Part shown: positions 1,709-29,000 of the stretch, in pieces
How the letters are laid out: every line of letters starts with the position of its first letter
How positions within the stretch are numbered: the stretch's first letter is position 1
Virus record (IMG/VR): IMGVR_UViG_3300030101_002526
Span: 1-38,221 of that record
Length of the DNA: 38,221 nt
Strand: one strand, 5' to 3'
Source: a virus
Notes under the pieces: generated by a model
Seen by the model: the letters and a program-made list of their open reading frames with translations, nothing else
The model's database searches: none
Told to the model about the DNA's origin: nothing
Translations under genes and position numbers: made by a program

Positions 1709-1716
1709 TATATTTG
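1709..1716 (+). promoter_or_regulatory. Bacteroidota-type -7 promoter box TATATTTG upstream of portal
   Basis: Exact TAnnTTTG match in the short gap between terminase and portal genes, with a T-rich stretch just upstream. It would give a leader of roughly 25-30 nt before the portal ATG at 1747. No convincing -33 TTTG element is visible. Confidence 0.55.
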
Positions 1717-4156: not shown

Positions 4157-4558
4157 ATGGACAACATAATAAACCTGGACAGGTCTCAAAGGCTTGATAT
4201 TATTTGCAGGAAGGGTGATACATTTACTTTGAATCTTGAGCTAAAAGATGACCAGGGAGTTCCTATTGACTTAACTGGCAATCCGTTTGATATTTACAGT
4301 TTTCTTATGGAGGTAAGACTCAGTGATACTTCTAGTACTGTAGTTCTAACCCCCACCCCAAACATTGCTAAAAAAATAGACGGCCTCGTAACTTTTAGTG
4401 TTCCAGCTTCTGGAATGGTGGTAAATGCTGGTCTTTATGTTTACGATATTCAGCAAACCAGAACAGACACAGTGTCTGGAAACCCTAGCCCTCAAGAGCT
4501 CTCTGTTGAGACTTTGCTCTTCGGAACATTTAAGATTAACGAAGACGTAACCGTTTGA
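4157..4558 (+). CDS. Small beta-sandwich structural protein, BppU N-domain-like
   Basis: The 133-aa product has the alternating hydrophobic pattern of an Ig-like beta sandwich: [22 protein letters not shown], then FLMEVRLSD, then a [10 protein letters not shown] strand and a closing [13 protein letters not shown] strand. This pattern is familiar from BppU-like N-terminal domains in phage fibre and baseplate modules, where it acts as an anchor or adaptor for longer fibres. It lies 10 nt after the portal gene and ends one base before the collagen-like fibre gene, which suggests it is the adaptor for that fibre. No catalytic motif is visible. The fold assignment is inferred from sequence pattern alone. 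Confidence 0.5.
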
Positions 4559-8173: not shown

Positions 8174-8191
8174 TTGTTTTTATTATCTTTG
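8174..8191 (+). promoter_or_regulatory. Extended promoter element ending in TATCTTTG, 4 nt before ATG
   Basis: An 18-base element, TTGTTTTTATTATCTTTG, differs by a single base from the element at 12661-12678. Its -7 box (8184-8191) lies four bases before the ATG at 8196, so the transcript should begin at or beside the start codon. The gap before it is only 27 nt and has no Shine-Dalgarno sequence. Confidence 0.6.
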
Positions 8192-8195
8192 TGGT

Positions 8196-9392
8196 ATGGC
8201 CGTAATAGTGGAAGATACCATAGAGATTGTAGTTTCCAACCCCCAGTTAAACAACACTGTAACCGTTACAAACCCAGCCTCTAAGAACACTATAAATGTT
8301 TCTCAGGGTTATACGGCATCTGTTGGAATACCTGGTCAGGGGGGTAGCGGAACCGTAACCCAGATCATAGCCGCTGATGGTTTGACGGGCGGCGTCATCA
8401 CCACTTCTGGGACAATCGGGCTCGAAGACACAGATGTTGATCCAGGTTCCTACACTTTGGCTAACATTACTGTTGATTCTAAGGGAAGGATTACCAGCGC
8501 GTCTAATGGTAGTGGCACTGGAGGCACTGACGTAACTACCGATCAGGTCATAAACATCACTAATAACGACGCTGCATTTAGCCACATGACTACCCCGATA
8601 GCTTCTGGGACGTCACTTCAATCGATATTAATAGATATGCTTCAAAAGTATACTCTATCCACGATATCCCTTAACGCTTTAAATGTCTCCTTTGAAGATG
8701 AAAATGGCTCTTACCCAGATCCATCCTTAAACGCTTCTAACATTATAACTAGAGAAGTAGGGGGAGGCGTCAGGGTTTTTGGTTTTCAACAAAGCCTATC
8801 TGATGACACTTCCGTTCAGGACAACTCTGTTTCTTTCTTTCAGAATGGCACGTTGGTAGAAGGGGGATTTAGCGATGTCGCTGCTTTTGGTACGCTTTCT
8901 CAGTTTATAGATCTCTCGCCTGGCGTTTCAACAAACGTCTTCAACTTAACCGCTATAGATGACGGAGGGGAATCTAACGAGACTATATCGTCCAACAACA
9001 AGACCATTAGATTTAGGTTTAAGGTTAAGGTAGGCGCTAGTCCTCTTGAGGTTTCTGATAGTAATTTCCAGAGCGTTTACGACAACCTCTCAACTATACA
9101 TGATGAGCTACAGCTAGAAACAACCATATTTACAACGTGTAACCCTGACACCAACAATGCTAGCAACTTTACCTACATTGTTTACCCAACCAGCTTTGGA
9201 TCGGTCATTAACGGACAGTATGTTGGTGTTACTGAGGTTTTGCAGGGGGCTCAACCAGTAACTGGAGCTTTCACTGATCATGGACCTTTCGTAGTAACCA
9301 ACAGCTTTGGCGCCCAGATAGAATATAATTTTTTTAGAACTAATGATCCTGGGGCTTTTGCCGATGGTGTCGTCTTAACTATAAACTTCTGA
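8196..9392 (+). CDS. Beta-rich fibre/tail structural protein
   Basis: The 398-aa product opens with a Val/Thr/Asn-rich strand region, then carries the module TVTQIIAADGLTGGVITTSG...[13 protein letters not shown] (about residues 50-108), closely parallel to residues 492-546 of the collagen-like fibre. The remaining ~290 residues contain Ig-like beta strands (SVSFFQNGTLVEGG, STNVFNLTAIDDGGES) and no enzymatic motif. It overlaps the next gene by one base (TGATG). It probably forms part of a fibre or decoration complex. It has its own promoter just before the start, with no room for a ribosome binding site. Confidence 0.6.
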   Translation: MAVIVEDTIEIVVSNPQLNNTVTVTNPASKNTINVSQGYTASVGIPGQGGSGTVTQIIAADGLTGGVITTSGTIGLEDTDVDPGSYTLANITVDSKGRITSASNGSGTGGTDVTTDQVINITNNDAAFSHMTTPIASGTSLQSILIDMLQKYTLSTISLNALNVSFEDENGSYPDPSLNASNIITREVGGGVRVFGFQQSLSDDTSVQDNSVSFFQNGTLVEGGFSDVAAFGTLSQFIDLSPGVSTNVFNLTAIDDGGESNETISSNNKTIRFRFKVKVGASPLEVSDSNFQSVYDNLSTIHDELQLETTIFTTCNPDTNNASNFTYIVYPTSFGSVINGQYVGVTEVLQGAQPVTGAFTDHGPFVVTNSFGAQIEYNFFRTNDPGAFADGVVLTINF

Positions 9393-10102
9393 TGCCAGTT
9401 TTTTTTCCAGAAGCGGTAGCTCACAATAACCCAAGCAGGCCCATCCTAGACGCCACTAATAGGCAGATCAAAGGATTCGGTCTATTTGAGTCAAAGGCGA
9501 ATAGAGACACCCTGGATGCGTCTATCAGGACTGGTGGGTTTTTGGCCGTCACCCAAGAGAACTCCAGCTACAAGGCGTTTATATTTACTGGCTCTACTTG
9601 GGATGACTCTGGTTCATGGACTGAATTAGGAACCCAGCCTGGGGGAAACAAGTTTGCCGTTTTAGCTAAGCTTAGCGACGTAGACTTTGATTACGACTGG
9701 ACAGAAACCCCTCAGTTTGAGTCTGTGTCTATGGTCAAGAGTAGCAATTCTACCTTCCCCTCTATAAATCTTTTTAGATCCAGGGGCTCTGATAGCCTGC
9801 TTACTCCAACCCAATCTGGGGACGTTATAGCTCAGATCGCTTTTTTTGGGGCGGACACAGGAGGGAACCAAGCCACTGCTGGAAAAATGGTTTTCACTCA
9901 AGTTGATTCTGCTGGAAGCGGCCCAGGAGTGTCTACTAAGATGGAGCTTTTTGTTGGTAATAACAGCGGAGACGTAGCCGCACTTACATTAAATGAAGAA
10001 AGGGTTGTATCTATATCAAGACAGTCTACGCCTCCCACACCAGTGCTTGGAGGTATATACGCTAGCAGCAATAACGAATTGTTTTTTGGTGTAGATAATT
10101 AA
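9392..10102 (+). CDS. Fibre-associated structural protein, 236 aa
   Basis: Translationally coupled to the preceding fibre gene (start codon shares a base with its stop). It begins with PVFFPEAVAHNNPSRPILDATNRQIKGFGLFESKANRDTL-type sequence, then GGFLAVTQENSSYKAFIFTGSTW, a pattern found in phage fibre proteins that describe a short beta domain with an exposed tip. It ends with a ProThrPro-Val-Leu-Gly-Gly-Ile-Tyr segment and a short NNELFFGVDN tail common at fibre-protein C-termini. No enzymatic motif. Role inferred from location. Confidence 0.5.
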   Translation: MPVFFPEAVAHNNPSRPILDATNRQIKGFGLFESKANRDTLDASIRTGGFLAVTQENSSYKAFIFTGSTWDDSGSWTELGTQPGGNKFAVLAKLSDVDFDYDWTETPQFESVSMVKSSNSTFPSINLFRSRGSDSLLTPTQSGDVIAQIAFFGADTGGNQATAGKMVFTQVDSAGSGPGVSTKMELFVGNNSGDVAALTLNEERVVSISRQSTPPTPVLGGIYASSNNELFFGVDN

Positions 10103-10105
10103 TTG

Positions 10106-10113
10106 TATATTTG
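10106..10113 (+). promoter_or_regulatory. -7 promoter box TATATTTG upstream of 429-aa fibre gene
   Basis: Exact TAnnTTTG match, 17 nt before the ATG at 10131. The A-rich leader between them has a weak purine run (ACAGAG). The spacing to the ATG is identical to that at 13704-13711. Confidence 0.6.
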
Positions 10114-10130
10114 CTTAAAACAACAGAGAT

Positions 10131-11420
10131 ATGAGTGCTACTTGGAGAAAAGTATTAACTGACGCTGACTTAGCCCCGAACACGGGGGATGTAGGTGCCT
10201 CGGTCGCAAACGGCCAAGAGGGTCTTGTGACTGGGAATAGCGTATTTGATTATATCGCTGCTCAAAACTTTGGCTCTGGAGCGGGCGATATTCAATCCGT
10301 AAATCAAGGTAATGGAATTGAAACTTCTGCTACCGCTGGCGGAACCGCAGGAAACATAGGTAGTGGGGATGCTTTCATCAGGGTAAAGGCAGCCGCAAAC
10401 GGAGGGATTGATGTTGCGTCTGGTGGTGTTGGTCTTGCTTCAACGTTAGCGGGAGATGGTCTTGCTCTTTCAAGCGGGATAATGACCGTAGACTTAGCTA
10501 CTGGCTCTGGACTTGAGTTTAATTCTTCTAAGCTCGCTGCTAAGTTAGATGCAAATACGCTTCATGTTGACAACTCCTCAGGGGGCATCGACATTAAAAA
10601 CGGAGGTGTTCAGTTGGTTCACTTGGACCCAGATATGGTCTTCACTACCGTAGACTCGTCAAATACTTCTCTGTCATTTACCGATGACACGAAAATTCTT
10701 ACCGCCTCTGCGATTAACGACAACTTCCCTAATGTAACAACAGCAGTCGGGGCAGAGACCTATGTCACTATGGGGGCAAACCAGGTGTTGTCTGTCAATG
10801 AGATTGACATCAGCGCCAACACAAATTTAGACACTGCTGCTGCCACTGCCGCTCAGGGTAATGTTGTTATTAGTCTTACTAACAGTACTCTTTCCGCAAA
10901 CGCAGTAAACTTAGGTACTGACGACGCTGTTAGTTTTGCTGGAGTCACTTCTACTGCTCAGCTTAGTGTTACTGCTGGTGGCGCTGCGATCACTGGTAGC
11001 ACAGCGATAAATGGTAATTTAAGCGTCCAGGGTAACTTTAGTGTAACTGGAACTACTACAACTGTAAACTCAGAGACCGTAACGATTAAGGATCACGTAG
11101 TCACTCTTGCCACTCAGGATACTACCCCTTCGGTAACTGACGCCACCGAGTCTGGGCTCGATGTATTTACTTCTTCTACAGAAGCTTATAGACCAAGGTT
11201 TGCATGGAGGCATGGTCAGGTTTCTGAGCTTACTGGATGGCAGATAAAAAATCATAACGGTTCCGCATCAAGCACTACAGATGGCCTTGTGGACATTGCT
11301 GTTATAGACTTTAATGCAGGCTCTCCTACAAGTGGCGCTCAATCTACAGATACATCTGCTGGGGTTGGAGCTTTCTGGTTTGATTCAGGTACAAAAGATC
11401 TTTACTTAAGAGTGTCATAA
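10131..11420 (+). CDS. Long beta-rich fibre protein
   Basis: The 429-aa product starts with MSATWRKVLTDADL, an anchor-like motif echoed by MASWKKVVLEGDI in the 294-aa fibre at 11774. The body is Ala/Gly/Ser/Thr/Asn-rich with repeated short strands, and near residue 310 it has NLSVQGNFSVTGTTTTVNSETVTIKD, a motif widespread in cyanophage and other marine phage tail fibres. The C-terminal ~90 residues (WRHGQVSELTGWQIKNH... GAFWFDSGTKDLYLRVS) look like a compact tip. Own promoter upstream; the next small gene overlaps its stop by one base. It is probably a tail or head fibre. Confidence 0.65.
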   Translation: MSATWRKVLTDADLAPNTGDVGASVANGQEGLVTGNSVFDYIAAQNFGSGAGDIQSVNQGNGIETSATAGGTAGNIGSGDAFIRVKAAANGGIDVASGGVGLASTLAGDGLALSSGIMTVDLATGSGLEFNSSKLAAKLDANTLHVDNSSGGIDIKNGGVQLVHLDPDMVFTTVDSSNTSLSFTDDTKILTASAINDNFPNVTTAVGAETYVTMGANQVLSVNEIDISANTNLDTAAATAAQGNVVISLTNSTLSANAVNLGTDDAVSFAGVTSTAQLSVTAGGAAITGSTAINGNLSVQGNFSVTGTTTTVNSETVTIKDHVVTLATQDTTPSVTDATESGLDVFTSSTEAYRPRFAWRHGQVSELTGWQIKNHNGSASSTTDGLVDIAVIDFNAGSPTSGAQSTDTSAGVGAFWFDSGTKDLYLRVS

Positions 11421-11593
11421 TGGGGCTTCTAGGAAAACAATCCAACGAACATAGCGTATCTACAGACACCCTCTCTAAGCAGGAGTTAAATTACTTGCTC
11501 GTTTTGCTTTCTGAGTCTACTTTTGAGGGAAAGGATGTACTTTTGCTTAGTAACGTGGTTAACAAGTTAAACAATCAGCTTGAGGCTAAGTAG
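11420..11593 (+). CDS. Small helical protein, 57 aa (paralogue of the next gene)
   Basis: Its ATG shares a base with the stop of the 429-aa fibre gene, the coupling used throughout this operon. The product begins MGLLGKQSNEHSV and continues with a helical segment LNYLLVLLSEST, FEGKDVLLLSNVVNKLNNQLEAK. Such short proteins with a helix, a STFxGxD turn and a second helix recur as hypotheticals in marine phages; no function is known to me. The reading frame fills an otherwise empty stretch. Confidence 0.65.
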   Translation: MGLLGKQSNEHSVSTDTLSKQELNYLLVLLSESTFEGKDVLLLSNVVNKLNNQLEAK

Positions 11594-11617
11594 TTTAATT
11601 TTAAAATTTAATTCATT

Positions 11618-11770
11618 ATGAAACTTGACATTCAAGAAGTTTACTTCCTGAGCCAATGTGCTAGTAACGCTACAATTAAAGCGTCTGACGCTGAAATAGT
11701 ATATAAGGCAATACAAAAGCTCGAAAAAGAGTTGTCTAGATTGGAGAAGTTAGAAGCAAGCAAAGATTAA
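11618..11770 (+). CDS. Small helical protein, 50 aa
   Basis: The second short gene of the pair follows 24 nt of A/T-rich leader typical of Bacteroidota translation starts. The product has the same helix-turn-helix layout as its neighbour: VYFLSQCASNATIKASDAEIVYKAIQKLEKELSRLEK aligns with the 57-aa product over its length, with shared Leu, Ser, Asp and Lys-Leu positions. It ends four bases before the next fibre gene. Function unknown; the pair may be small virion or assembly factors, or regulators. Confidence 0.6.
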   Translation: MKLDIQEVYFLSQCASNATIKASDAEIVYKAIQKLEKELSRLEKLEASKD

Positions 11771-11773
11771 TGA

Positions 11774-12658
11774 ATGGCTTCATGGAAAAAAGTAGTATTA
11801 GAGGGGGACATCACTGCGACAGCCCCTGTATCGGTATCGTCTAGTGCGCTATCTCTTTCTGTATCTGGCTTAAGTGATGCAGGAACGCCCGCTGGTACTG
11901 ATAAGGTGCTGCTATGGAATGGATCTGTATGGGAAACAGTTGACGCTTCTGAGTTTTTGGGGGGTTCTGGTTCCATAACCATCAACAACAACTCCGACAA
12001 CAATCTTTTAACAGCTTCGGGGACTTCTAATACCCTGAATGGTGAGAGCAATCTTACTTACTCAACAGACTTACGTATAAACTCTGGGTCTATTATATTA
12101 GGCACTAACAATAATTTCTTAAAGGGAATATCAGGAACCAGCATCAGAAACCTTATAGGTTACAATTCTTCTGATGATGTTATAGTTGGAGGAGACGTAA
12201 ACTCCAATGTTAGCCTTGTAGGTAAAGCAAAGGCAGATTACGGTATAGAAAAAATTCTTACTAGCACTAGCGGGATCTCTAACGCTGGAGATTTTGGAAT
12301 AGGCGCCGAGATTATAAGGTATGGGAGTACAGCGACGGCTGCTGGCAGGCTATATTACTTGAATACAAGCGGTAGTTGGTCTGGCGCTGACAATAGCCAA
12401 TCGAGTTCTGCTACCCCACTTTTAGCTGTGGCGGCTGGGAATAATTCTGGCACTGCGGGAATGATAATCAGGGGTATGTTAAAGCCAGCAAGCATATTGA
12501 ACTCGCCTTCAATAGGAGAGCATGTGTATTTAGGAACTGGCGGTCAATTTGATGCAAATGCTCCGACTTCATCTGGAAGCGTAAAAAGGGCTCTCGGCCA
12601 TCTCGTCACGAGTGGCATTATATACTTCAACCCCTCTGTAGACTTTACGGACGTATAA
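11774..12658 (+). CDS. Fibre protein sharing a C-terminal domain with the collagen-like fibre
   Basis: The 294-aa product starts with the anchor motif MASWKKVVLEGDI, has a Ser/Gly/Asn-rich middle, and ends in a ~120-residue domain (about 175-294) homologous by eye to residues 589-708 of the collagen-like fibre. Matching landmarks, in order, are AGRLYYLNTSGSW / [19 protein letters not shown] / GMLLRGM, GEHVYLGT / GDELYVST, and IIYFNPSVDF / [10 protein letters not shown]. The shared end suggests a common trimer cap or attachment function. It is the last gene before the promoter at 12661. Confidence 0.65.
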   Translation: MASWKKVVLEGDITATAPVSVSSSALSLSVSGLSDAGTPAGTDKVLLWNGSVWETVDASEFLGGSGSITINNNSDNNLLTASGTSNTLNGESNLTYSTDLRINSGSIILGTNNNFLKGISGTSIRNLIGYNSSDDVIVGGDVNSNVSLVGKAKADYGIEKILTSTSGISNAGDFGIGAEIIRYGSTATAAGRLYYLNTSGSWSGADNSQSSSATPLLAVAAGNNSGTAGMIIRGMLKPASILNSPSIGEHVYLGTGGQFDANAPTSSGSVKRALGHLVTSGIIYFNPSVDFTDV

Positions 12659-12660
12659 TT

Positions 12661-12678
12661 TTGTTTTTATTACCTTTG
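12661..12678 (+). promoter_or_regulatory. Extended promoter element ending in TACCTTTG, 4 nt before ATG
   Basis: TTGTTTTTATTACCTTTG, 17 of 18 bases identical to the element at 8174-8191. The -7 box is 12671-12678 and the ATG of the basic-protein cassette is at 12683. There is no space for a ribosome binding site, so a leaderless transcript is expected. Confidence 0.6.
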
Positions 12679-12682
12679 CCGT

Positions 12683-12976
12683 ATGGCATTGACTAAAAGC
12701 GAAAAAGCAAAACTTAAGAGGTATGGTCTTTCTGGCTTAAGCAAGCCTAAGAGAACATCGGGCGGCAAGAAGTCGCACGTAGTTGCTGTTCGCGTAAACG
12801 GCAAAGTCAAGATTATTCGCTTTGGTCAAAAGGGAGCCAGCACAGCTGGTAAGCCTAAGAAGGGGGAGAGCGCTCGCATGAAGGCGAAGCGCAAGTCCTT
12901 CAAAGCCAGACATAGAAAAAATATTGCTAAAGGACCCAGCAGCGCTGCTTACTGGGCAAATAAGGTTAAGTGGTAA
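12683..12976 (+). CDS. Small very basic protein, 97 aa
   Basis: First gene of a four-gene chain of Lys/Arg-rich proteins placed just before scaffold and capsid. It contains GKVKIIRFGQKGA and a C-terminal KAKRKSFKARHRKNIAKGPSSAAYWANKVKW. That ending recalls a small basic family seen in marine phages (RKSFRARH...ARYWSCKxW type, DUF6321-like), but without the cysteines. The strongly positive charge suggests nucleic-acid binding or contact with packaged DNA. Function is not established. The next gene starts on the last base of its stop codon (TAATG). Confidence 0.7.
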   Translation: MALTKSEKAKLKRYGLSGLSKPKRTSGGKKSHVVAVRVNGKVKIIRFGQKGASTAGKPKKGESARMKAKRKSFKARHRKNIAKGPSSAAYWANKVKW

Positions 12977-13176
12977 TGAAAGCTATCAAATACAACAAGG
13001 GCGGTAAGGTCCCCAAACTAACTATTTTAAATAAGTCTGTTATGGTGGACCCCCCGAAGGGTTTTCACTGGATGGAGGAACAAGGTAGATACTATCTAAT
13101 GAAGGGTGATTATAAGCCTCACCCAGGAGCAGTAAAGCAGGCCAAGTTCAAGCAGGCCAACCACCCAAAATCATGA
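12976..13176 (+). CDS. Small basic protein, 66 aa
   Basis: The start chosen is the ATG overlapping the upstream stop (TAATG) rather than a GTG six bases earlier, because the one-base overlap matches the style of this operon. The product (MKAIKYNKGGKVPKL...) has a central PPKGFHWMEEQGRYYLMKGDY segment with many aromatic residues, likely a small beta hairpin, and a basic C-terminus. No family recognised. Probably co-expressed with the other basic proteins for virion assembly. Confidence 0.6.
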   Translation: MKAIKYNKGGKVPKLTILNKSVMVDPPKGFHWMEEQGRYYLMKGDYKPHPGAVKQAKFKQANHPKS

Positions 13177-13370
13177 AGGCGAAGAAGAAGTTTAACGCCA
13201 AGTATACCCGTGGCAGCTCTAACGTAGGCAAGAGAAAAAAACTTATGGCTGAGATCGCCGCTATCTATAAGAAGCATAGAGGCACTAAGTCAAAGAGAAA
13301 GAAGAAAGGATTCCCACCCGCTGTGGCTGCCCGACTCAAGAAGCTCATGGCACAAAGAGATAAGATATGA
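13173..13370 (+). CDS. Small Lys-rich protein, 65 aa
   Basis: Coupled to the preceding gene by an ATGA overlap. More than a third of its residues are Lys or Arg, in helical blocks (KRKKLMAEIAAIYKKH, KSKRKKKGFPPAVAARLKKLMAQ). This looks like a nucleic-acid-binding or capsid-interior peptide. No catalytic motif. The next gene starts within its last codons, again by ATGA. Confidence 0.6.
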   Translation: MKAKKKFNAKYTRGSSNVGKRKKLMAEIAAIYKKHRGTKSKRKKKGFPPAVAARLKKLMAQRDKI

Positions 13371-13699
13371 AACTCAAAAAGGCATCAGACGAGCAAGTCG
13401 GATTAAAAAAACTTCCAGAAGAGGTGAGAAACAAAATGGGCTACATGGAAGACGGTGGCGTGTTGAAGTATAGGAAAGGGGGGAGCGTCAAGAAGAAGAA
13501 AAAGAAAAAGAAAGGTGGAGGTATGGCTGGGTTGTCTGCGGCACAGAAAGAAGTGTACCGTAGAGGCTTGGCTGCATATATGTCTTCTGGTAATAGACCG
13601 AAGGTGTCTCAACACGCCTGGGCTATGGCTAGGGTGAAGAGCGAGTTTGGTAGAAAGGAAGCCGCTAAGATCCGCGCCAAGAAAGGCAAGAAAAAATAG
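13367..13699 (+). CDS. Basic protein with Lys-run and HAWAMARV motif, 110 aa
   Basis: Fourth member of the basic cassette (ATGA overlap). It has a run of eight lysines near residue 46, followed by a Gly hinge and a C-terminal domain with EVYRRGLAAYMSSGNRP and SQHAWAMARVKSEF. A short RGL... SSGxRP... HAWAMARV pattern of this kind recurs in small proteins of marine phages; its function is unknown to me. The end is again Lys-rich. It ends 30 nt before the scaffold gene, with a promoter between. Confidence 0.6.
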   Translation: MKLKKASDEQVGLKKLPEEVRNKMGYMEDGGVLKYRKGGSVKKKKKKKKGGGMAGLSAAQKEVYRRGLAAYMSSGNRPKVSQHAWAMARVKSEFGRKEAAKIRAKKGKKK

Positions 13700-13703
13700 T
13701 TTA

Positions 13704-13711
13704 TATATTTG
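13704..13711 (+). promoter_or_regulatory. -7 promoter box TATATTTG before scaffold/capsid genes
   Basis: Exact TAnnTTTG match 17 nt before the scaffold ATG at 13729, with an AAGTAAAA leader. It is well placed to drive the scaffold and capsid genes as one transcript ending at the hairpin at 16281. Confidence 0.6.
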
Positions 13712-13728
13712 CATTCAATTAAGTAAAA

Positions 13729-14814
13729 ATGGAAGAAAACACACAACCCGTAGAGGTTGCGGAGCAAGAGGCTCCCGTCTCTACACCCGAACCGTCATTT
13801 AGCTTTGTCTCTGATGAAGAGGTGGCGGCTATGCAACAACCTCAGGCTCCAGCCGTAGAAGAACAGCCTACGGTAGATAATGCCCCAGAGGTACAACAAG
13901 AAATTACTGATGAGTCTCAACCCGATCAAGCAGAGACTCAACCAGAATACCAACCAGAAGAAATAGAAGGAGCAGTCTTTAACTTCCTTAGCGAAAGGCT
14001 TGGAAGGGACATAAATTCCTTTGATGATCTTACGGTTCAACAGCAGGAGCAAAGAGAGCTTGATCAACGTATTTCTGTAATCGCTGACTTCGTAGAGAAG
14101 ACAGGTCGCGACCCTCGCGACTGGTTTGTTTATCAGTCTATGAACCCCTCCGAAATGGATGACGTGACTGCTATTCAGGTTCAGATGAGCACAGAATACC
14201 CTAACCTTTCTTCACAAGAGGTTAACACGTTGATTTCAGGTAAATACAAAATTGACCCCGATCTGCACTCAGAAGAAGAGGTTCAACTTTCGCGCCTGCA
14301 AATGAAGATCGATGCGGAGAATGCTAGAAGAGGTATTGATGATATGCGATCGCAGTATCAAGCCCCTTTGCAAGAGCAATCACAGCAGGATTCTTTAATT
14401 GATGATGATTGGATTTCAAACATGCAAAAAGACCTATCCGAAATGGATGGGATTGAGTTCGATCTCGGAAACGGGAACAACTTTACGTTTGGCATGGATT
14501 CAAACTACAAGAATCAATTATCTGAGAAAAACACTCGCCTTGACGAGTTTTTTGACCCTTACGTGCGTGAGGATGGTAGTTGGGATTATGATATGCTGAA
14601 TATGCACAGAACCGTTATCGACAACGTAGACAAAATCGTTCAGTCTGTTTACAGGCAGGGGATGGCGGATGCTCAGAGATCGGTAGTGCAGAATGCAGCT
14701 AACGCAACACCCACCTCTCCTAATCAAGGAAGCGCACCAAGCGGACCCGATCCTTTGACCCAGCAATTAAAAGAAGCGCTAGGAGTCAGCAAAGGAGGGT
14801 TCGGATTTATCTAA
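13729..14814 (+). CDS. Capsid scaffolding protein
   Basis: The 361-aa product is acidic and Gln/Glu-rich, with a disordered N-terminal ~80 residues (EEQPTVDNAPEVQQE...), a helical middle and a basic-poor C-terminal tail (GSAPSGPDPLTQQLKEALG). Position (immediately upstream of the capsid gene), charge, length and predicted disorder all match scaffolding proteins of podoviruses, which guide procapsid assembly and are then expelled. No protease motif is visible, so the scaffold is probably recycled or cleaved by another factor. The identification is by context rather than similarity. Confidence 0.7.
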   Translation: MEENTQPVEVAEQEAPVSTPEPSFSFVSDEEVAAMQQPQAPAVEEQPTVDNAPEVQQEITDESQPDQAETQPEYQPEEIEGAVFNFLSERLGRDINSFDDLTVQQQEQRELDQRISVIADFVEKTGRDPRDWFVYQSMNPSEMDDVTAIQVQMSTEYPNLSSQEVNTLISGKYKIDPDLHSEEEVQLSRLQMKIDAENARRGIDDMRSQYQAPLQEQSQQDSLIDDDWISNMQKDLSEMDGIEFDLGNGNNFTFGMDSNYKNQLSEKNTRLDEFFDPYVREDGSWDYDMLNMHRTVIDNVDKIVQSVYRQGMADAQRSVVQNAANATPTSPNQGSAPSGPDPLTQQLKEALGVSKGGFGFI

Positions 14815-14834
14815 ACTTTTAAAAAGAAAACAAA

Positions 14835-16265: not shown

Positions 16266-16280
16266 TACATATAGGTAATC

Positions 16281-16308
16281 GAGAGGGGGAATACGCCCCC
16301 TCTCTTTT
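16281..16308 (+). terminator. Intrinsic terminator after the capsid gene
   Basis: Perfect 9-bp inverted repeat GAGAGGGGG / CCCCCTCTC with a 6-nt loop, followed by four T. It should end the scaffold-capsid transcript. Confidence 0.88.
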
Positions 16309-16316
16309 ACTTCTCT

Positions 16317-16324
16317 TAAATTTC
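16317..16324 (+). promoter_or_regulatory. Weak -7-like box TAAATTTC before the 260-aa gene
   Basis: One mismatch (last base) to TAnnTTTG, 14 nt before the ATG at 16339. A promoter is expected here because a strong terminator lies just upstream, but this candidate is weak. Confidence 0.3.
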
Positions 16325-16338
16325 AATTTTATTTTACT

Positions 16339-17121: not shown

Positions 17122-17142
17122 TTCTATATATATACCACTGGG

Positions 17143-17170
17143 AAAGCCTCCGCAAGGGGGCTTTTTCTTT
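17143..17170 (+). terminator. Intrinsic terminator with GCAA tetraloop
   Basis: Stem AAAGCCTCC / GGGGGCTTT (9 bp with one G-U pair), loop GCAA of GNRA type, then a T-rich tract. It ends the 260-aa gene transcript and abuts the next promoter. Confidence 0.85.
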
Positions 17171-17174
17171 TTCG

Positions 17175-17182
17175 TATATTTG
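17175..17182 (+). promoter_or_regulatory. -7 promoter box TATATTTG, 4 nt before ATG
   Basis: Exact match just after the terminator T-tract, with CTTC between box and ATG at 17187. Any transcript must start at or next to the ATG. The T-rich tract of the terminator doubles as the upstream region of the promoter. Confidence 0.65.
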
Positions 17183-17186
17183 CTTC

Positions 17187-17942
17187 ATGGCAAAGACATT
17201 CGGAGCTAGTATATCTTTAGTGCATGACACGCTTCAGGACCTCGCTAATAAAGACCAGCAGGGGTTCGTTTCTGAAGCGGAGTTCAACAACTTTGCACAG
17301 ATTGCTCAGCTAAACATATTTAATTCGCTTTTTGACAAGCTAAAGGATGCCAAAAGGCTGTCTCGCGCGGGCTTTAACCCAACTAGGGACAAGTCTAAGC
17401 TGAAAAGAATACAAGAAGACCTGTCTGCCTTTTCTACCAAGAAAGAGATAGAGAAGTCTAATGAGGTCTTTGATTTAGGTGCCTTGGTGGGTAATGGAGC
17501 AGCTGACCCGATGTCTAGGATTATTAGCATCACAACTGCTGGAAGCGTTATCCTTGATCGGTCTACCAAGAAGCCCATTGAAATTTGCTACGACGAAGAG
17601 AAGATTGAAAGAATACTCATAAGCAATCTTAGCGCCCCAACAGAAGACTTTCCTATCGCCCTTATATCAGACAACATACAGGTCTTCCCAACCAGTATAA
17701 ACTTGATTGAGGTTAGGTACTACAAGTATCCAGAAAGTAGAAACAGCGACGGTTCCAGAACCGTAGGACCGCCTCTGTATTCCTCTTCATCTGCCCCTAG
17801 AGATTTCGAACTTCCAGAGCACTACACTTCGGATTTGATTTATGAAATCGCAAGGCTCGTTGGGATCAATTTAAGAGACAACAGCATACTTACATATTCT
17901 AGTCAGGAAATGGCGACTAAGAAACAAGAAGAGACATTCTAA
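17187..17942 (+). CDS. Head-tail ring/adaptor protein 1
   Basis: The 251-aa product has the layout of ring proteins that sit below the portal: an N-terminal helical region (VHDTLQDLANKDQQGFVSEAEFNNFAQIAQLNIFNSLFDKLK), a beta middle (IISITTAGSVILDRSTKKPIEICYDEEKIERIL) and a C-terminal helical stretch after ELPEHYTSDLIYEIARLVGINLRD. The NKDQxGFVSxxEFN pattern recurs in ring/adaptor proteins of Bacteroidota podoviruses. It shares a base with the next gene (TAATG). The call is supported by position before another adaptor and the nozzle-like protein; exact ring number unknown. Confidence 0.6.
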   Translation: MAKTFGASISLVHDTLQDLANKDQQGFVSEAEFNNFAQIAQLNIFNSLFDKLKDAKRLSRAGFNPTRDKSKLKRIQEDLSAFSTKKEIEKSNEVFDLGALVGNGAADPMSRIISITTAGSVILDRSTKKPIEICYDEEKIERILISNLSAPTEDFPIALISDNIQVFPTSINLIEVRYYKYPESRNSDGSRTVGPPLYSSSSAPRDFELPEHYTSDLIYEIARLVGINLRDNSILTYSSQEMATKKQEETF

Positions 17943-21700: not shown

Positions 21701-23289
21701 GCGTTTACTACGGGACTAGATCGGTAATAACACCTAATGTCTACGACGACGGTGACGGAAACCCTATGACCTCTTTCTCTGATACCAACATAGAGGACTT
21801 TGATTACGACACAAGGGAGATGGAGTCTATGGACGCCTCTGATTTTGTTGCCTCTAGGTGCTGGAGCAAAGGAAGAGCTCATGTAAAATATGATCAGGCA
21901 AAAACTAAAACCCTAGAAAACAGAATTGTATATAGCGAAGAACAGGTTGACCCGCTTGGGGACACCAAGTTCTCTAGCTTCAACCCAGGCTCAAATTCGT
22001 TTAAGGATCTTCCAGCTAATTACGGAAGCATAAACTATATAAATGAGTACAATCAAGGTCTTGTGGCTATACAAGAGAATAAGCTATCTTACATTCCTGT
22101 AAAGAGAAACATTATCGAGTACGCTGATGGCTCTTCTGCAATCACGGCAAACGCGAGCGTGCTAGGAACGCACAAGGAAGCGAACGGAGACTTTGGCATA
22201 GGATCGGACCAATCGTCTGCTCTAGTTAGAGACGGAATGGTATTCTTTGTAGATAAGTCTAGACAGAAGTCTATCATGGCGAGCGGGGCAAATATGATTT
22301 CTATTTCAGACATAGAGATGAGTTCGTTCCTTGAGACTGAGATAAACAACATGGAGGCCGCTACTGGATCTGGAGGTAGAATTATAAGTGGGTATAACCC
22401 AGACGAAAACTTGTATTTACTAACTATAGAACCTAAGGTTAGCGGGCCAAGCACAACTTACGCTGGCATTACTATAGGTTATTCTATATCAGATAAGAGG
22501 TGGATTAGCAGGTATGACTTTAAGCCGTCAAACTACTGCTTTATAGATAATAAGCTTTTATCTGGTTTTTGGTATCAGAACGCTGACGACACGCAGTCTT
22601 ACCTGTTCAATAACCACAAGTCAACCACAATGAACACCTTCTACGGAACAGCTTACCCGTCTTCCGTTAAGGTTATCTCAAAGATCTCTCCATCTAGAGT
22701 AAAGGTATTTAACGCCATATCATATGAGGGCGAATCCAGTGAATGGGAAATGTCTACTGGAGCAACAACAAATCTAAACCAAACATCTGGAGTCATTCAT
22801 GATGCTGCCGATATTGTAAACACTCCAAAATTCGTAGAAAAAGAGGGTGGGTATTACGCCGCTATGTCTAAGTCATCGGCTCTAAAGTATTACTATATAG
22901 GCACTATTTCGGATGGTGGTGTAACCCCTGGAAGCAACAATATTAATCTCTCTGATATTTCTAGGCTTGACAGATTGAATTTCTTTACATCTGAAGTTTC
23001 TCTTTTTACCTCTTCTGATGGTCAGACATTTACGCAGGATGACCTTGGTGCTAGTGTCCTTATTTCTTTTAATCTGTCTACCAAAAGCATAACGATAACA
23101 CCCAATCCGAATACGAATATCGCCAACGGAAAAAAACTGTATGCTGGGGTGGAAACTAACGGAGACGCCCTGAGGGGGAACTTTGCTAAAATCACTCTAA
23201 CTAACAGCTCAACTACTAAGCACGAGCTATACTGCATTAACACTCACATCACTGATTCTAAGCTTCATCACCCCTTAGGTCAACAATAA
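18784..23289 (+). CDS. Large tail nozzle / muzzle-like protein
   Basis: The 1501-aa product follows the adaptors, as the muzzle or stabilisation protein does in crAss-like and P22-type short tails. Recognisable landmarks are the N-terminal LRSLAKDKDERFFAEGDMLDAKNITV, a propeller-like YFFVWSTSSSVHGVYEYDVSND, the signature YFTDGKNNPRKINV (near residues 142-156) and GTVFQFAVQYVYTNGEKSALSP. A second propeller-like region (about 1090-1260) has SYIPVKRNIIEYADGSSAI and MVFFVDKSRQKSIMASG. There is no enzymatic motif. It probably closes the tail channel and contacts the host surface. Tail-nozzle role is likely; a tail-hub role is the alternative. Confidence 0.65.
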   Translation: MAIDKIKLRSLAKDKDERFFAEGDMLDAKNITVSTSEETSGGVVKNTKGTVPGSAATTSDQIPNQRARVIGSVSDDANGKVYFFVWSTSSSVHGVYEYDVSNDSYKVLIRSTVLDFDEYGFVKADIVSGHFRREESLETMIYFTDGKNNPRKINVQQALEHRFQGFSNQEIEHSLAVVKAPSLLPPTVELKTDTSRKTNNLYGTVFQFAVQYVYTNGEKSALSPHSEVVYPKYMSLQGIESQDANLLGSATEENKAEINTRWVNQPSTVSYNKADVKEIVILARTVNTNPFFVVDTFDPNQDLVKNGSTVYGSASGIYSFYNDGLYLYESSSVTDRVFDDVPHKAVGQSVSGGRLMYSSPTSGYENTNVQGTLAVNYEETPSGVFVSDSESNPSITHGNTALTTNIYDGSFELDVSSVPPTVTAKSRLSVSFTYKPTGFKQYGFYGSSGIGGVDVDNSILDLSFTKADGTSITLSGGKADDSAGSDFLGSLSMSVLDGNDGANVNSKVFSASVVIDEETTRAFACGKLVQALEDEIATYTYSIPKTLGNAPILWQLKDSSNAKYPLYMRRVKFDLNFDCAFLSSSDTIKCIPRVGNWDLPVGSNAFTSSGPILFSVGAFVLSDADFYIDFDLTDSDALGDPATSLDTVVQSSFFTSSATAPANRNGIFTSGTPETWENYNLGDNVSPQDNGASAFNLLISQSFKRRTFKAGSTHKFGVVYFDEFGRCGNVNEIGDTYVLPFGDPGRLSKNGPCTISVTITSDPPSWAVSYQIVYSDMGSWEKFESFVVGGGIYKKTDRGDAIGGGTGTAETPRYKSQTDAIYVSINTLSRYQFEKGAIKDYVYTPGDKLRIISYKDTTTNAPTFYTSSDADIHDVAGIEVFTSNINPEYTDTFVQTNRVGKFLKVIPPGGQAVTNFDPGGTNFWDNECLVEILTPRKDPPTEIFYEIGASILLESPRDGANRHGDAVSLTEGSVYYGTRSVITPNVYDDGDGNPMTSFSDTNIEDFDYDTREMESMDASDFVASRCWSKGRAHVKYDQAKTKTLENRIVYSEEQVDPLGDTKFSSFNPGSNSFKDLPANYGSINYINEYNQGLVAIQENKLSYIPVKRNIIEYADGSSAITANASVLGTHKEANGDFGIGSDQSSALVRDGMVFFVDKSRQKSIMASGANMISISDIEMSSFLETEINNMEAATGSGGRIISGYNPDENLYLLTIEPKVSGPSTTYAGITIGYSISDKRWISRYDFKPSNYCFIDNKLLSGFWYQNADDTQSYLFNNHKSTTMNTFYGTAYPSSVKVISKISPSRVKVFNAISYEGESSEWEMSTGATTNLNQTSGVIHDAADIVNTPKFVEKEGGYYAAMSKSSALKYYYIGTISDGGVTPGSNNINLSDISRLDRLNFFTSEVSLFTSSDGQTFTQDDLGASVLISFNLSTKSITITPNPNTNIANGKKLYAGVETNGDALRGNFAKITLTNSSTTKHELYCINTHITDSKLHHPLGQQ

Positions 23290-23290
23290 T

Positions 23291-23298
23291 TATATTTG
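23291..23298 (+). promoter_or_regulatory. -7 promoter box TATATTTG, 3 nt before ATG
   Basis: Exact TAnnTTTG match two bases after the upstream stop codon, with GAC between it and the ATG at 23302. A TTG inside this box is in frame with the gene but is better explained as promoter sequence than as a start codon. Confidence 0.55.
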
Positions 23299-23301
23299 GA
23301 C

Positions 23302-24348
23302 ATGGCTGAACTAAAAGATTTACTTAAATACATCCCTGAAGCTGTAGGATACTTCCAGGGACGACGTGCAATAAAGGACGAAGTAGCTCGACTGAGAGAG
23401 CAAGATCCTGTGCGTCAAGAACGTATCCAGATGGACCCAGGCTTACAGCAGGCGTTCCGAGAAGGAAACACTCGCGGGGACGTTGACCAGCAACTGAGTA
23501 TCGATCGTTCAGTGCAGGAGGCGATTAGAAGAAACCCAAGAAACATCGCAAAGGCTATTGAGGCTGGTCAGGCGGCCAGTTCCAAGACGAGAGCAGCTGA
23601 CAACCTCAGAAGAATCAGAAACCTGCAAACCGCTGGTACGCTGGGACAGAGGCTGAATCAGCTTAACGCTACTATTGATCTTGGTAACGAGATGCGGGAG
23701 AGACAGCAAGAGGATAGAATTGCAAATGCTGAGTTCCAGAAGAGAAGACTGAATATGAGAGGTCTTAGCACCCTCGGCGACCTTATTGGTGATGCCGCTA
23801 GTCTTAACTCTCTTAGCGATAACCCAAATCAAAACCTAAATCAACTCGAAACAAGAACAGCTCAGGAAATCGACCAACCAGAAGGGGTAGAGCTGCCACC
23901 TATTGAAGAAAGAGAGCTTATTAGGTCCCCTCAGCCCGTGGGCACCTTTGAGGAAATTTTAGCTGCGGCCAAGCGGGAAGATGAATTAAACAGACTTAAT
24001 CAAGACCCCACCTCTGGGCTGGACCCTGAATCTTTAGGTCTTGAGCAATATACTCAGCCGTCTCGGATGAGTCCGATTCCAGGCGAAGGTTACGTAGAAG
24101 GTGGCGCTGTGGTCACCCCAGACGGGTACGATCATGACGGCGTGGACATCAACATGACCGATGCTGAAAGCGGTAGGTTCTTGGGTAGTGTAGAAAGCGC
24201 TGAGATGATCGTCAACGCAGACGACACGAACGAGGGTCTGAGACTAGCCAAAAAAAACCCCGACAATCCGTTGTCCAAATGGTATCTTAACCTCACGAAA
24301 AGATTCCAAAAAGAAGCTAAGGAAAGAGAGGCTCAAAACAAACGATAA
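23302..24348 (+). CDS. Internal virion / ejection protein, 348 aa
   Basis: Start set at the ATG after the promoter box rather than the TTG within it. The product is helical and charged for ~170 residues, with many Arg/Gln, then a Pro/Glu-rich linker, and ends in a short domain (EGGAVVTPDGYDHDGVDINMTDAESGRFLGSVESAEMIVNADDT, about 268-320). Short C-terminal segments of this kind occur in many phage virion proteins, often associated with attachment of internal or tail-channel proteins. No enzymatic motif. It overlaps the next gene by one base (TAATG), as expected for components of one ejection complex. Confidence 0.5.
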   Translation: MAELKDLLKYIPEAVGYFQGRRAIKDEVARLREQDPVRQERIQMDPGLQQAFREGNTRGDVDQQLSIDRSVQEAIRRNPRNIAKAIEAGQAASSKTRAADNLRRIRNLQTAGTLGQRLNQLNATIDLGNEMRERQQEDRIANAEFQKRRLNMRGLSTLGDLIGDAASLNSLSDNPNQNLNQLETRTAQEIDQPEGVELPPIEERELIRSPQPVGTFEEILAAAKREDELNRLNQDPTSGLDPESLGLEQYTQPSRMSPIPGEGYVEGGAVVTPDGYDHDGVDINMTDAESGRFLGSVESAEMIVNADDTNEGLRLAKKNPDNPLSKWYLNLTKRFQKEAKEREAQNKR

Positions 24349-26042
24349 TGTCGCAGACAAAAAAACAACAGAGTAATCAGTCCTTCTATCCTGGGATAGA
24401 TATTGCGGGCCAGGCAGTCAATGACTTTATTGGCTTGCAGAATCAGCGTATCCTCAAGGACCAGGCCCTGCTAAAAGCGGAGTCTGACCTTGCTGTGGCT
24501 CAGCAGAAAGCTGAGGGGGACCTCCAGAAGGAGATGCTGAAGCAGCAAACTAAAGCGATCGAGGCGGAGCAGAAGGCGCAAGAGGAGGCCAGGAAGGAGA
24601 TGGAAAAGCTTAGGTCTGATTTGCCCATTCAGGCTGGAGGCTTATTCAATTCTCATGCTCAAGCTTTGTTGCAGGTTGGTGGCATGATGTCTGAAGATCT
24701 CCCAGGAATGATCGAGAACCTTGGTGTAGATGGTGCAGCCGCAAAAGCAGCGGAGTTTAAGGGGTATCATGATGCGTTTGAAAAGATGCACACGAAATAC
24801 ATGACTCTAGGCAACAACATGGCTTCAAAAACAGGCACGGAGCTCGACGGTGAAGCGGGTATGGTTGAGGGGTATGACGACATTGCTTTCAATGAGTCTA
24901 CTCGTGTAGCAAACCTTGCGGATAGGTTTTTAGCCACTAGAGATGAGAACTACAACTACTTCGTTGAAGACAGAGGCTACAAGGACGCCAATGGAAACAA
25001 AGTGCAGGGTTTAGGCGTTTTACCAATGGCTGATTGGGTTAGAGCGGTTCAAGATCAGGACATACCAGGACTGTTTAAATCGCAACCCAAATTAATTTAT
25101 GACAAAACGTTAGACGAAGCGTTTAATTCTATTACAACAAACGACAAAGGTGACGTTAGAATGCCAAGCGGATTCAAAACAGATGAAGCCCTTGACATCT
25201 TCTTGGACTTTAACTTAAACCAGAAGACGGCCACCGAGAAAAACAAGCCATTGTTTAATACGGCTATTTCTCAGCATGCCATCAACGAAGGAATCACTTT
25301 CAAACAGGTCATGGATGACCCCCAGGAGCGCACCGAAGCTTTACAGAATTTTAGAGAAAGCTTTAAGCAGAAAGCAAAGGACTTTAGAAAGGCACAGCCG
25401 TCTACAGGAAGCAGCTCTACCAAATCTGGAGAGACTGGTAAAGAAATCCTTGAGGATCAAGGATTTGGGACAGTAACTGCCGATCGGGCTCAGAAAGTCG
25501 CTGAATTGTTTGCGGGAGATGTCGGCGGACCTGTAAGCCCTGAGTCCATGGGTATCACTAACGTGGCGACAACAGGGGCGGTGTCTGTTAGCCTTGGCGA
25601 TGAGTTTGCGACCAGTATAGGAGCCGAATATGATGACTTTAAGGTAGAGGAAGCGGCTTTTGATGCCGATGGGAATATCTATGTGGCTTTATCAGGAAGC
25701 TACGGATACAACCCGTATGAGGGTATGGACTCTGTAGAAGGCGCGGGGATAAACGCTATAGAGTACGAAAATAAAACAAAGGACTTCATCATCGATAAGT
25801 TTGGGTCTGGGTACGTTACAATACTGCAAGGGCTGGGAGATAAGCTGTTAACCGAAACCGAGAGCGATAAAGTCAAAGACTTTTATGAGGGGTTAGATAC
25901 TCCGTCTCAGGCTAACTTCTATGCGGGGCTCATGGTGCTTGCAAAAGAAACAAACCCCACCTTCGAACAGAAGGTAAAAGAATCTTTCAACACCAACGTC
26001 CGAGGTATTACGTATGACGAGCTTATTAGCGCTCTTCAATAA
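24348..26042 (+). CDS. Internal virion / ejection protein, 564 aa
   Basis: The N-terminal ~90 residues after a Gln/Ser-rich start form a strong coiled coil rich in Gln, Lys and Glu (residues ~30-85). The rest is helical with acidic blocks and no catalytic motif. Position between the 348-aa protein and the giant polyvalent gene, and absence of transmembrane segments, fit a core or ejected internal protein of a podovirus. Function assigned by context only. Confidence 0.5.
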   Translation: MSQTKKQQSNQSFYPGIDIAGQAVNDFIGLQNQRILKDQALLKAESDLAVAQQKAEGDLQKEMLKQQTKAIEAEQKAQEEARKEMEKLRSDLPIQAGGLFNSHAQALLQVGGMMSEDLPGMIENLGVDGAAAKAAEFKGYHDAFEKMHTKYMTLGNNMASKTGTELDGEAGMVEGYDDIAFNESTRVANLADRFLATRDENYNYFVEDRGYKDANGNKVQGLGVLPMADWVRAVQDQDIPGLFKSQPKLIYDKTLDEAFNSITTNDKGDVRMPSGFKTDEALDIFLDFNLNQKTATEKNKPLFNTAISQHAINEGITFKQVMDDPQERTEALQNFRESFKQKAKDFRKAQPSTGSSSTKSGETGKEILEDQGFGTVTADRAQKVAELFAGDVGGPVSPESMGITNVATTGAVSVSLGDEFATSIGAEYDDFKVEEAAFDADGNIYVALSGSYGYNPYEGMDSVEGAGINAIEYENKTKDFIIDKFGSGYVTILQGLGDKLLTETESDKVKDFYEGLDTPSQANFYAGLMVLAKETNPTFEQKVKESFNTNVRGITYDELISALQ

Positions 26043-26047
26043 TTTCG

Positions 26048-26055
26048 TAAATTAG
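26048..26055 (+). promoter_or_regulatory. Possible -7 box TAAATTAG, 4 nt before ATG
   Basis: One mismatch (third T of TTTG) to TAnnTTTG, four bases before the ATG of the giant gene. It repeats the geometry of stronger boxes at 8184, 12671 and 17175. Weak if taken alone. Confidence 0.3.
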
Positions 26056-26059
26056 CGGT

Positions 26060-29000
26060 ATGAATTCTGAGCCAACTCCACAACAGCCTACTCTCGACGA
26101 ACTCATTGAACAAGGCAAGGATGATTTGTTTCTCGCTGCAAGCGGATTTAGCGGGGCAGAAATAGAAGAGGCAACTAAAAAAAAAAGTACCGACGACCTG
26201 CTGAGCGGAAGTTCTACGGGATTGTCATCGGTAGATTCTCCCTCGGAATTACAATCTCCAAAGCCAGACGCTGACCTTGTAGACTGGGCATCGGGTCAGA
26301 CAATCCTGATGAACAGTGTTACGGAGAATACGTTTGACGTAAACACTGGGGAGGTTACGGGTGAGGTGGTAACTACCGCAGCTCCTGGCTCTGCTTTTGT
26401 GCAGCCATCTATCACTGAGACGACATCAGACATAGAGAAGGAGACAGACGTACAAAGACAGCAACTAGGCGAGGATGCTGATTTTTACGGAGCTCCAAAA
26501 AAGGGCAAGAAGAGAGTTGTTGCTTTCGGTAGGGGCGAGGACACTTACGAGAGATATAGGGCTTTATCAGAAGGCCCAGCAGCAAAGGCCCTTGAGTACA
26601 GGGAAACAGCTAGAGCTTTGGCTAAAAAAACCCTCGCCGAGCAAGCAACCTCCATGGGGAGCCCAGAAGAACAAGCTGCTCAAAAAAGCCTTTTGGAGAC
26701 CCTGAAAGAAGCTCATGAGATAGACCCTAATTCTACTCAGTTTAATGTAGATGCGATCACGAATGAGCGGCTTCAGATTCAGGCAAACAACAATGAAGGT
26801 TATACCGCGCTAAGAGAAAGAACTTCAAAGGAGCTCGAAGAGGTTACCGAGAGACTGAAGGCTAATCAATATAGCTCAGACACTCCTATACCTGGAGCCC
26901 CATCATATGCTCAAGATCTGAAAAGCTCAAGAGAAAAAAGGCTTGAAGATGAAAGCAGAAGGGCTGAATTGCTTGCTGTCATAGCTGACGACCATACTAT
27001 GGCTCTTGAAAGGGAGAGAAGAACAATTCTTCAGGAAGCGTATCAGTTAGCAAACCCAGCTCCACAGAGAAAAGAAGGAGAGGGCTTCGGAGAGTTCAAA
27101 GAAAGGGAGATGGATTGGCAAACAAGAGTCCGTCAAGTGGAGCACATGTTGCTTAAAGGCGGGCTTTCTGTTGATATCGATGATGACGGCTACCTTTCTG
27201 AGCCTAGTTCTGGAATCGAAGATCGAATTATCGATGTAGCTCTCATGGTAAATCAAATAGTTGATATGTCTGCCTACGGTGTAGGAACGGCATTCTCTAT
27301 GCTCCCAGGAGCGGAAGAAAGCATGATGGACCATGTTCGTCAGTCGAGAGAGTTGCAGAAAAGACTGAGATCCAAGAAAAGCACTAAGGCTATTTCTTTT
27401 GCAGAAGAAGCAAGATTCGGAGCCGCAGAGTGGAAAGACTCCATGGTTTTTCTTGATGATGTTATAGGCAACTCTATCGTTTCTCTCCCCCACACAGCAG
27501 TAGCTATTGGGGTTGGTGCAGTCACTAAAATCCCCTATGCATCAGCGGCAGCAGTTAGCTACCTAGCTGGAGTGCAGCAATACTGGGAGAGCAAGGTAGA
27601 TCCCTCATTTGACACCTTTACTGTCAATGGAGCCTCGGTCGGGCCTATTACCATGGGTAAAATCAATGAATACTACGCAACGAAAGGGAATACAATTAAG
27701 ACAGACGAAGAGGGTGACTACATTTTAATTAGCGGCCAGAGAATTGACGTAGAGCAAAACAACACCATGCGTTGGGGGTATTCGACCGCCATCGGTTTTG
27801 CTGAGGGTATCCCAGAGGCTGTTGGTGCCAAACTCCTTACTAGTGCGATAAAGCAAGCTGGGATTGGAGGCAGTAGTTACGCTCTTGAGAACATGTTCAA
27901 AGGCGCTTTCAAAGCCTACGGCAAGGGTTTTGCCGCTGAAGCCCCCCAGGAAGCAGTAACAGAATATCTCACAATCCTAGCTGACGCATCAATCAAAGGT
28001 GAATACATCGATCCCGTAGAGGCTTTTGCTAGGATATCAGAGTCTTTCGTTACTGGGGGTTTCAGTGGTGGAGGAATATCTTCTGTAGTTACAACTACAC
28101 AAAGAATCAACCAGACCATCAATGCTGCTGACAGCAACATTAAAGGATTTTGGAATAGGTTAGAGAGCGGACACAAAAAACTGCAAGCACAACAGCCTTA
28201 TCAAGCTGTCCTTAACAACGTGACAAGCAGACTGCAAGAAGTTAGACTTCCAGGAATGGAAGAGGCCAACAAGGCCGCTGATCAACTCAGAGAGGCCCAG
28301 AAGTCTGGAAACGCTACGGAAATAGAACTTGCAGAGCTGAACCTAAGAGAGAAGCTGGACGAGGTAGAAGTTCAAGATGAACAGTTGAAGGAAATGGTTT
28401 CTGAGCTCTCACAGAGCGACCCCGCATTGGCAGCAACGATCGTTGATCTTGCTGAGCAAGCACAGGCAACAGAGGACGTCCTGAAGAGAGATAAAAAGGT
28501 GATTGACGAAACTCCTACCGCCCGTCCAGCGGCCTCTCAAGCTGCAAAGACCGCTCGCGAGAACCTTAACAAGGCTATAGAAGAGGGGCAGAAGAGACTT
28601 GAAGGGAGAGAGAAGCAGGACCCCACGTTTGTACAAGAATCACAAACAGAAGGCTTGACTGAAGGGCTATCTAAGTCTTTGCTTGAGATGGAGCAGGACT
28701 TCAAGCCAACGGCTCAAGAGATGTCAGACGTCTTTGGAAAGCCTATTGAGGAGGTCCAGAAGTACTTGGAACAGGTTTCAGCAAGCACGGCATACGCTGC
28801 TATGTCTGTTGGGCAGATGGTGCAGGTTTATGAGAGCGATGAAGCATACCTGGCTGCTGTTCCAGACAAGGCCCTTGCAGAGCGACTGCAAACATCTGCT
28901 CAGTACGACCCAAAGACAGGCACTATTCACCTTTCTCCCAAGGCAACGGCATTTGATGTTATCGAAGAAAGCATCCACAACGACGTTCGAGCAAAAGGCA

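Follow-up and report, generated by a model that had tools for sequence, protein, structure and literature searches.

Promoter placement pointing to leaderless messages of selected virion genes in a clade of Bacteroidota phages

The virion operon of the IMG/VR record IMGVR_UViG_3300030101_002526 raises the question of whether some of its messenger RNAs begin directly on the start codon. The window is the whole stretch of DNA that was analysed, 38,221 nucleotides in length. Exact copies of the Bacteroidota sigma-A -7 box, TAnnTTTG, end there 4, 4, 4 and 3 nt before the ATGs at 8196, 12683, 17187 and 23302; the initial annotation had interpreted these as leaderless starts used selectively for some structural modules. 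Their coordinates are correct (Table 1), and they occur far above chance. The arrangement that predicts leaderless messages is real and conserved, and it is strongest for 17187 and 12683. Very probably, a conserved promoter placement within a clade of phages causes selected virion units to start on AUG, often in fusion with the terminator of the preceding unit. The leaderless state of these genes is a prediction, with the RNA 5' ends deduced from promoter position.

The phage and the boxes before its genes

The window comes from an uncultured phage related to the Bacteroidota phages phi38:1 (Pervagoviridae) and Elemovirus, and represents its virion half. An array of terminase, portal, tail-fibre, scaffold-like, major capsid (MCP) and tail genes is encoded entirely on the plus strand, with short intergenic gaps across the whole window. 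The source record comprises 45,371 bases and carries replication genes on the minus strand at its right-hand end. The MCP, portal and ring proteins are homologous to those of the cultured phages, and the gene order is similar, with the succession terminase-portal-scaffold-capsid-x-ring-ring-nozzle common to the window and its cultured relatives. The identity is only about 28-31%, as found for the capsid and tail-ring proteins compared with Flavobacterium Elemovirus and the Cellulophaga phi38:1/Calle phages. At 4560-7909 a collagen-like (GPQGPQG) tail-fibre protein is followed by an RCC1-like repeat protein, and 26060-34603 encodes a 2847-aa protein with an LPD38 domain close to the C-terminus. 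No tRNA genes were found in the window. Scanning it for sigma-70-type promoters gave a count no higher than in shuffles, which is expected for Bacteroidota. L081 (JABSPG010000006.1), a contig of 44 kb assigned to an Ekhidna MAG, is a related phage with an MCP identity of 47%. It gives a hint of a Cytophagales host, the host evidence from genome contigs consisting of this single MAG-binned contig.

Table 1. Coordinates of promoter boxes, hairpins and genes in the window
Feature	Position	Strand	Description
-7 box TATCTTTG	8184-8191	+	exact TAnnTTTG, 4 nt, then ATG 8196
-7 box TACCTTTG	12671-12678	+	exact TAnnTTTG, 4 nt, then ATG 12683
-7 box TATATTTG	17175-17182	+	exact TAnnTTTG, 4 nt, then ATG 17187; predicted +1 at 17187
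-7 box TATATTTG	23291-23298	+	exact TAnnTTTG, 3 nt, then ATG 23302
Second box TAATTTTG	12656-12663	+	19 nt before ATG 12683, 15 nt upstream of the 12671 box
-7 box, leadered contrast	13704-13711	+	17 nt before ATG 13729 (scaffold-MCP unit)
-7 box, leadered contrast	10106-10113	+	17 nt before ATG 10131
-7 box, leadered in the window	1709-1716	+	30 nt before portal ATG 1747
Intrinsic terminator	17140-17172	+	hairpin 17140-17167; U-tract reaching 2 nt before the -7 box of 17187
Terminator-like hairpin	16281-16304	+	3' of the MCP gene
Gene 8196	8196-9392	+	tail-fibre-like protein, PHROG 38058, E 9e-7; predicted leaderless
Gene 12683	12683-12976	+	small basic protein, PHROG 7595 (function not annotated); predicted leaderless
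Gene 17187	17187-17942	+	portal-tail ring (tail barrel) protein, PHROG 14543 virion structural; predicted leaderless
Gene 23302	23302-24348	+	virion-region protein; predicted (nearly) leaderless; heads 23302-24348-26060

Among the 670 plus-strand ATGs of the window, an exact box ends 3-5 nt ahead of only four, each of them a gene start. When the upstream regions of 25 genes were shuffled, such genes numbered 0.04 on average, and none of 4000 shuffles reached four. Boxes with one mismatch precede 9 of the 670 ATGs. The two further leaderless starts proposed on the basis of such boxes, at 4157 and 26060, were dropped; the boxes are present, but near-boxes of this kind are common and conservation is absent. 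None of 45 orthologs of 4157 is preceded by an exact box. For 26060, the stretches covering 80 relatives yielded no ortholog, although they may stop short of that gene. The leaders of 17 and 30 nt attributed to 10131, 13729 and 1747 stand in part: the boxes do lie 17, 17 and 30 nt from the ATG, but the transcripts would have leaders of about 13, 13 and 26 nt.

The cases of 23302 and 8196 are weaker than those of 12683 and 17187. For 23302 the distance is 3 nt, a spacing whose overall frequency in the relatives matches expectation (3 observed, 2.9 expected), and this makes it a less secure case than those with 4 nt. Genes in the corresponding position in relatives have mostly spacing 4, and a search of PHROG with 23302 gave no match. 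Leaderless spacing of 8196 recurs in one of the 13 relatives with an ortholog (L010). Gene 12683 may have a leadered start, from its second box, besides the leaderless one.

Spacing between box and start codon in related phages

A viral collection contained 245 stretches with a gene for a capsid-protein relative, of which 80 were kept; 57 related phage loci with less than 80% capsid-protein identity served as representatives. In the 80 loci and the window, the distance k was counted from each TAnnTTTG to any ATG that begins an ORF of 80 codons or more, and the 29 alternative permutations of the six fixed box letters served as controls. The full set gave 145 boxes at k=4, 23 at k=5, near-background numbers at k=6-13 and a broad hump at k=14-26. 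ORFs with several in-frame ATGs can count repeatedly, which affects long spacings more than k=4. In the 57 representatives, 103 boxes were found at k=4 and 15 at k=5 compared to about 1.9 per spacing for permuted boxes. The excess amounted to 0.6 in all over k=6-13 and to 134 over k=14-45. Spacing 4 is thus about 50-fold enriched, and the hump at 14-26 marks ordinary leaders. The count of box-N4-ATG in relatives, which the initial annotation had proposed as a check, is therefore in its favour (103 in 57 loci, about 2 expected). A sharp peak at k=4 next to an empty range at k=6-13 fits promoters fixed at the distance that would put +1 on the start codon. The portal gene of five loci (L025, L026, L032, L040 and L041) has the box 7 nt from the ATG, which is the sole sign of leaders of 2-3 nt.

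The start-site map of F. johnsoniae places +1 4-5 nt past the box (PMC6847099), and in F. psychrophilum the box spans -12 to -5 (PMC9723704). The N4 spacing would therefore put +1 on the A of the ATG. The -33 TTTG element is weak in F. johnsoniae (PMC6847099). In the leadered promoters of the same phages, the fifth base past the box is A in 68% of cases and the sixth in 81%, and these A-rich positions are the place taken by the A of the ATG in the k=4 class. Start codons at k=4 were 142 ATG, 2 GTG and 0 TTG. Leaderless messages show a strong AUG preference (PMC9031893), and this near-exclusive use of AUG is expected if initiation is signalled by a 5'-terminal AUG. Furthermore, a pyrimidine precedes the ATG at 91% of the k=4 sites, whereas A takes this position at 53-60% of leadered and internal starts (Fisher P ~4e-17). 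The stretch before the ATG at the putative leaderless sites looks like the initiation region of a promoter, unlike a leader. The spacing peak, the AUG preference, the preceding pyrimidine and the published +1 offset all argue for reading the N4 boxes as leaderless starts.

Gene-specific use and the fused terminator

Gene 17187 heads the tail unit 17187, 17942 and 18784. A sequence search of solved structures with this protein gave no credible match, and fold comparison alone found one. The AlphaFold model (pLDDT 87) matches the tail-barrel chains 7qoj_D/E/F of phicrAss001, solved with C12 symmetry, at E values from 6.5e-8 to 2e-6; by this match, its product is very probably a portal-tail ring protein. 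With the window included, a start was recognised in 68 orthologs, 63 with the leaderless spacing and five leadered (k=16-17); among 48 representatives these numbers are 45 and three. The spacing persists between phages whose MCPs have diverged to about 50% identity. The orthologs of 12683 are at spacing 4-5 in 29/41 cases, and in 19/20 of the box-bearing representatives. Other genes behave differently. Portal orthologs are mixed (k=5, 7 and 18-30), scaffold (13729) orthologs have k of at least 14 in every case with a box, and a box was found in 0/80 MCP orthologs.

The strands were compared in the record of the window and six relatives taken nearly whole; the division by strand was preferred to one by zone since the contigs of the relatives are permuted. 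Leaderless spacing precedes 29/319 genes of the virion strand and 2/195 of the other strand (P 8e-5). The ratio of leaderless to leadered boxes, 29:31 against 2:10, differs marginally (P 0.06). Together with the contrast between the ring gene and the scaffold gene, leadered wherever a box is present, the difference between strands supports the proposed selective use of leaderless starts for some structural modules. On the non-virion strand of G127 and G131, two short ORFs share a TAAATTTGGAAA start immediately 5' of the ATG, preceded by a CCTAAAGG inverted repeat. This common arrangement is possibly a shared early promoter, or chance.

The terminator fused to the promoter at 17187 is an addition missed by the initial annotation. 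Its hairpin has an energy of -18.7 kcal/mol (z -3.9); at 8196, 12683 and 23302 no significant terminator hairpin was found upstream in the window. A hairpin with a T-tract at most 52 nt upstream of the box accompanies 71/144 leaderless, 26/170 leadered and 14/600 random sites. The element precedes the 17187 orthologs of most relatives. In 34 aligned junctions of this gene, the sequence of the hairpin is variable, the T-tract, GTATATTTG and the ATG are constant, and TATATTTG with the preceding G is invariant. RNAalifold gave a weak energy for these junctions (-0.29 kcal/mol), since the hairpin does not keep a constant distance from the box; covariation was therefore left out of the evidence. 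Scanning the whole collection for T5-N-T5-NN-TATATTTG-Nk-ATG gave 27 stretches with k=4, three with k=9 and four with k=20; almost all k=4 matches belong to this clade, so they are not independent of the ortholog result.

The contig of the Ekhidna MAG has the junction with k=4. In the cultured relatives, gp95 of Cellulophaga phi38:1 and gp24 of Flavobacterium Elemovirus are the orthologous ring genes in the same gene order, and hairpin, T-tract (U-tract in the RNA) and a TATATTTG or TATCTTTG box are kept. However, the distance from the box to the ATG is 21 and 19 nt, respectively, so these genes are leadered, whereas it is 4 nt in the clade of the window. The presence of the terminator-promoter junction in both phages indicates that it predates the leaderless spacing, or at any rate has a wider distribution. 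The simplest interpretation would be that the leader was lost in the clade of the window; since five members of this clade are leadered, the leader state would have changed several times.

Competing explanations and significance

In the proposed mechanism, host RNA polymerase probably transcribes the virion genes from sigma-A (TAnnTTTG) promoters. With precisely 4 nt, or sometimes 5, between the end of the -7 box and the start codon, the RNA would begin on the A of AUG, and the message would presumably be translated by 70S-type initiation on the 5'-AUG. At many sites, including 17187, the hairpin, U-tract, -7 box, 4 nt and AUG follow one another within about 50 nt. Fusing the terminator of the preceding unit to the promoter means that such a boundary could end one message and start the next without untranslated RNA. 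The scaffold-MCP messages would retain ordinary leaders. Weighing against the mechanism, 8196, 12683 and 23302, which have no significant hairpin, could be read from upstream promoters in longer messages. No phage-encoded bS21, a candidate helper of leaderless initiation, was found in 40 records.

The leaderless messages of lambda cI, Mycobacterium and Deinococcus (PMC9031893) resemble the predicted ones in having a 5'-AUG positioned by the promoter, a preference for AUG and a dispensable ribosome-binding site. The present case differs in being predicted from sequence, in a phage of a phylum with rare leaderless messages, in its gene-by-gene conservation at virion genes and in its frequent fusion with the terminator of the preceding unit. 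Our search of the open-access literature brought up no description of leaderless transcription in phages of Bacteroidota.

Leaderless starts could arise from a habit of Bacteroidota hosts that have many leaderless genes, with nothing specific to virion genes. This explanation is compatible with leaderless messages in the phage and is possible, at a fairly low probability. In the mapped species, the leaderless minority uses the sigma-A -7 box and +1 offset seen here: 3.7% of leaders are shorter than 10 nt in B. thetaiotaomicron (PMC7366714), 5.5% of messages are leaderless or have very short leaders in F. psychrophilum (PMC9723704) and at most 13% have leaders of 10 nt or less in F. johnsoniae (PMC6847099). 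In some lineages, leaderless genes may be far more frequent than in these species. In four genomes of the phylum, counts of TAHHTTTG-N4-ATG compared to those at spacings 9 and 20 were 61 against 13 and 14 in G116, 108 against 44 and 43 in G042, 101 against 40 and 43 in G046, and 64 against 23 and 35 in G034. In the MAG holding the related contig, box-N4-ATG was found 62 times compared to 40 and 26 at other spacings. The strong excess in G116, G042, G046 and G034 means that host habit may contribute. However, about 46% of box-started genes are leaderless by spacing in the phage loci against about 12% in Bacteroidota genomes (a crude mixed sample of 0.75 Mb) and 3.7-5.5% in the published maps. 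Moreover, the use is mainly on the virion strand, and scaffold-MCP is exempt. In the mapped Bacteroidota, leaderless genes are a scattered few per cent, while in the sampled phage loci the predicted ones are about half of the box-started genes and are orthologous.

Leaderless initiation might also be a device for dosage and timing, in which low-copy tail, connector and internal virion proteins are leaderless, high-copy scaffold and capsid are leadered, and infection shifts host ribosomes to 5'-AUG initiation. This idea is speculative and rather unlikely; its basis is presumed copy numbers, the ring protein being taken as low-copy and the scaffold and capsid as high-copy.

Random shortening of leaders in compact phage genomes, some of them reaching zero, is very improbable. 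The short gaps of the window agree with it, and the U-tract of the terminator is even shared with the promoter. Yet such shortening should fill spacings 6-13, which remain at background while spacing 4 is strongly enriched; moreover, the leader state is gene-specific and persists over the divergence given above. The gap at 6-13 largely refutes this explanation.

Virion-operon genes are often co-transcribed, and no strong terminator lies upstream of 8196 and 23302, but that TATATTTG by the ATG is a translation or recognition signal within a longer read-through message, and no promoter, is scarcely credible in view of the same box, with the same terminator upstream, standing 19-21 nt away from the ATG of the phi38:1 and Elemovirus genes, the lack of the box at internal genes such as MCP, the strong terminator before the box at 17187 and the identity of the motif with the published sigma-A -7 box.

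The preferred reading thus remains the conserved placement of promoters at the start codons of selected virion genes. Bacteroidota ribosomes retain the anti-Shine-Dalgarno sequence while the genes lack Shine-Dalgarno sequences, and the way in which the start codon is chosen is debated. The clade and its cultured relatives provide a natural leadered/leaderless pair of one gene for testing leaderless translation in Bacteroidota. The junction offers a terminator-promoter-start element of roughly 50 bp, and box-N4-ATG may serve as a simple rule for recognising true gene starts in uncultured Bacteroidota phages.
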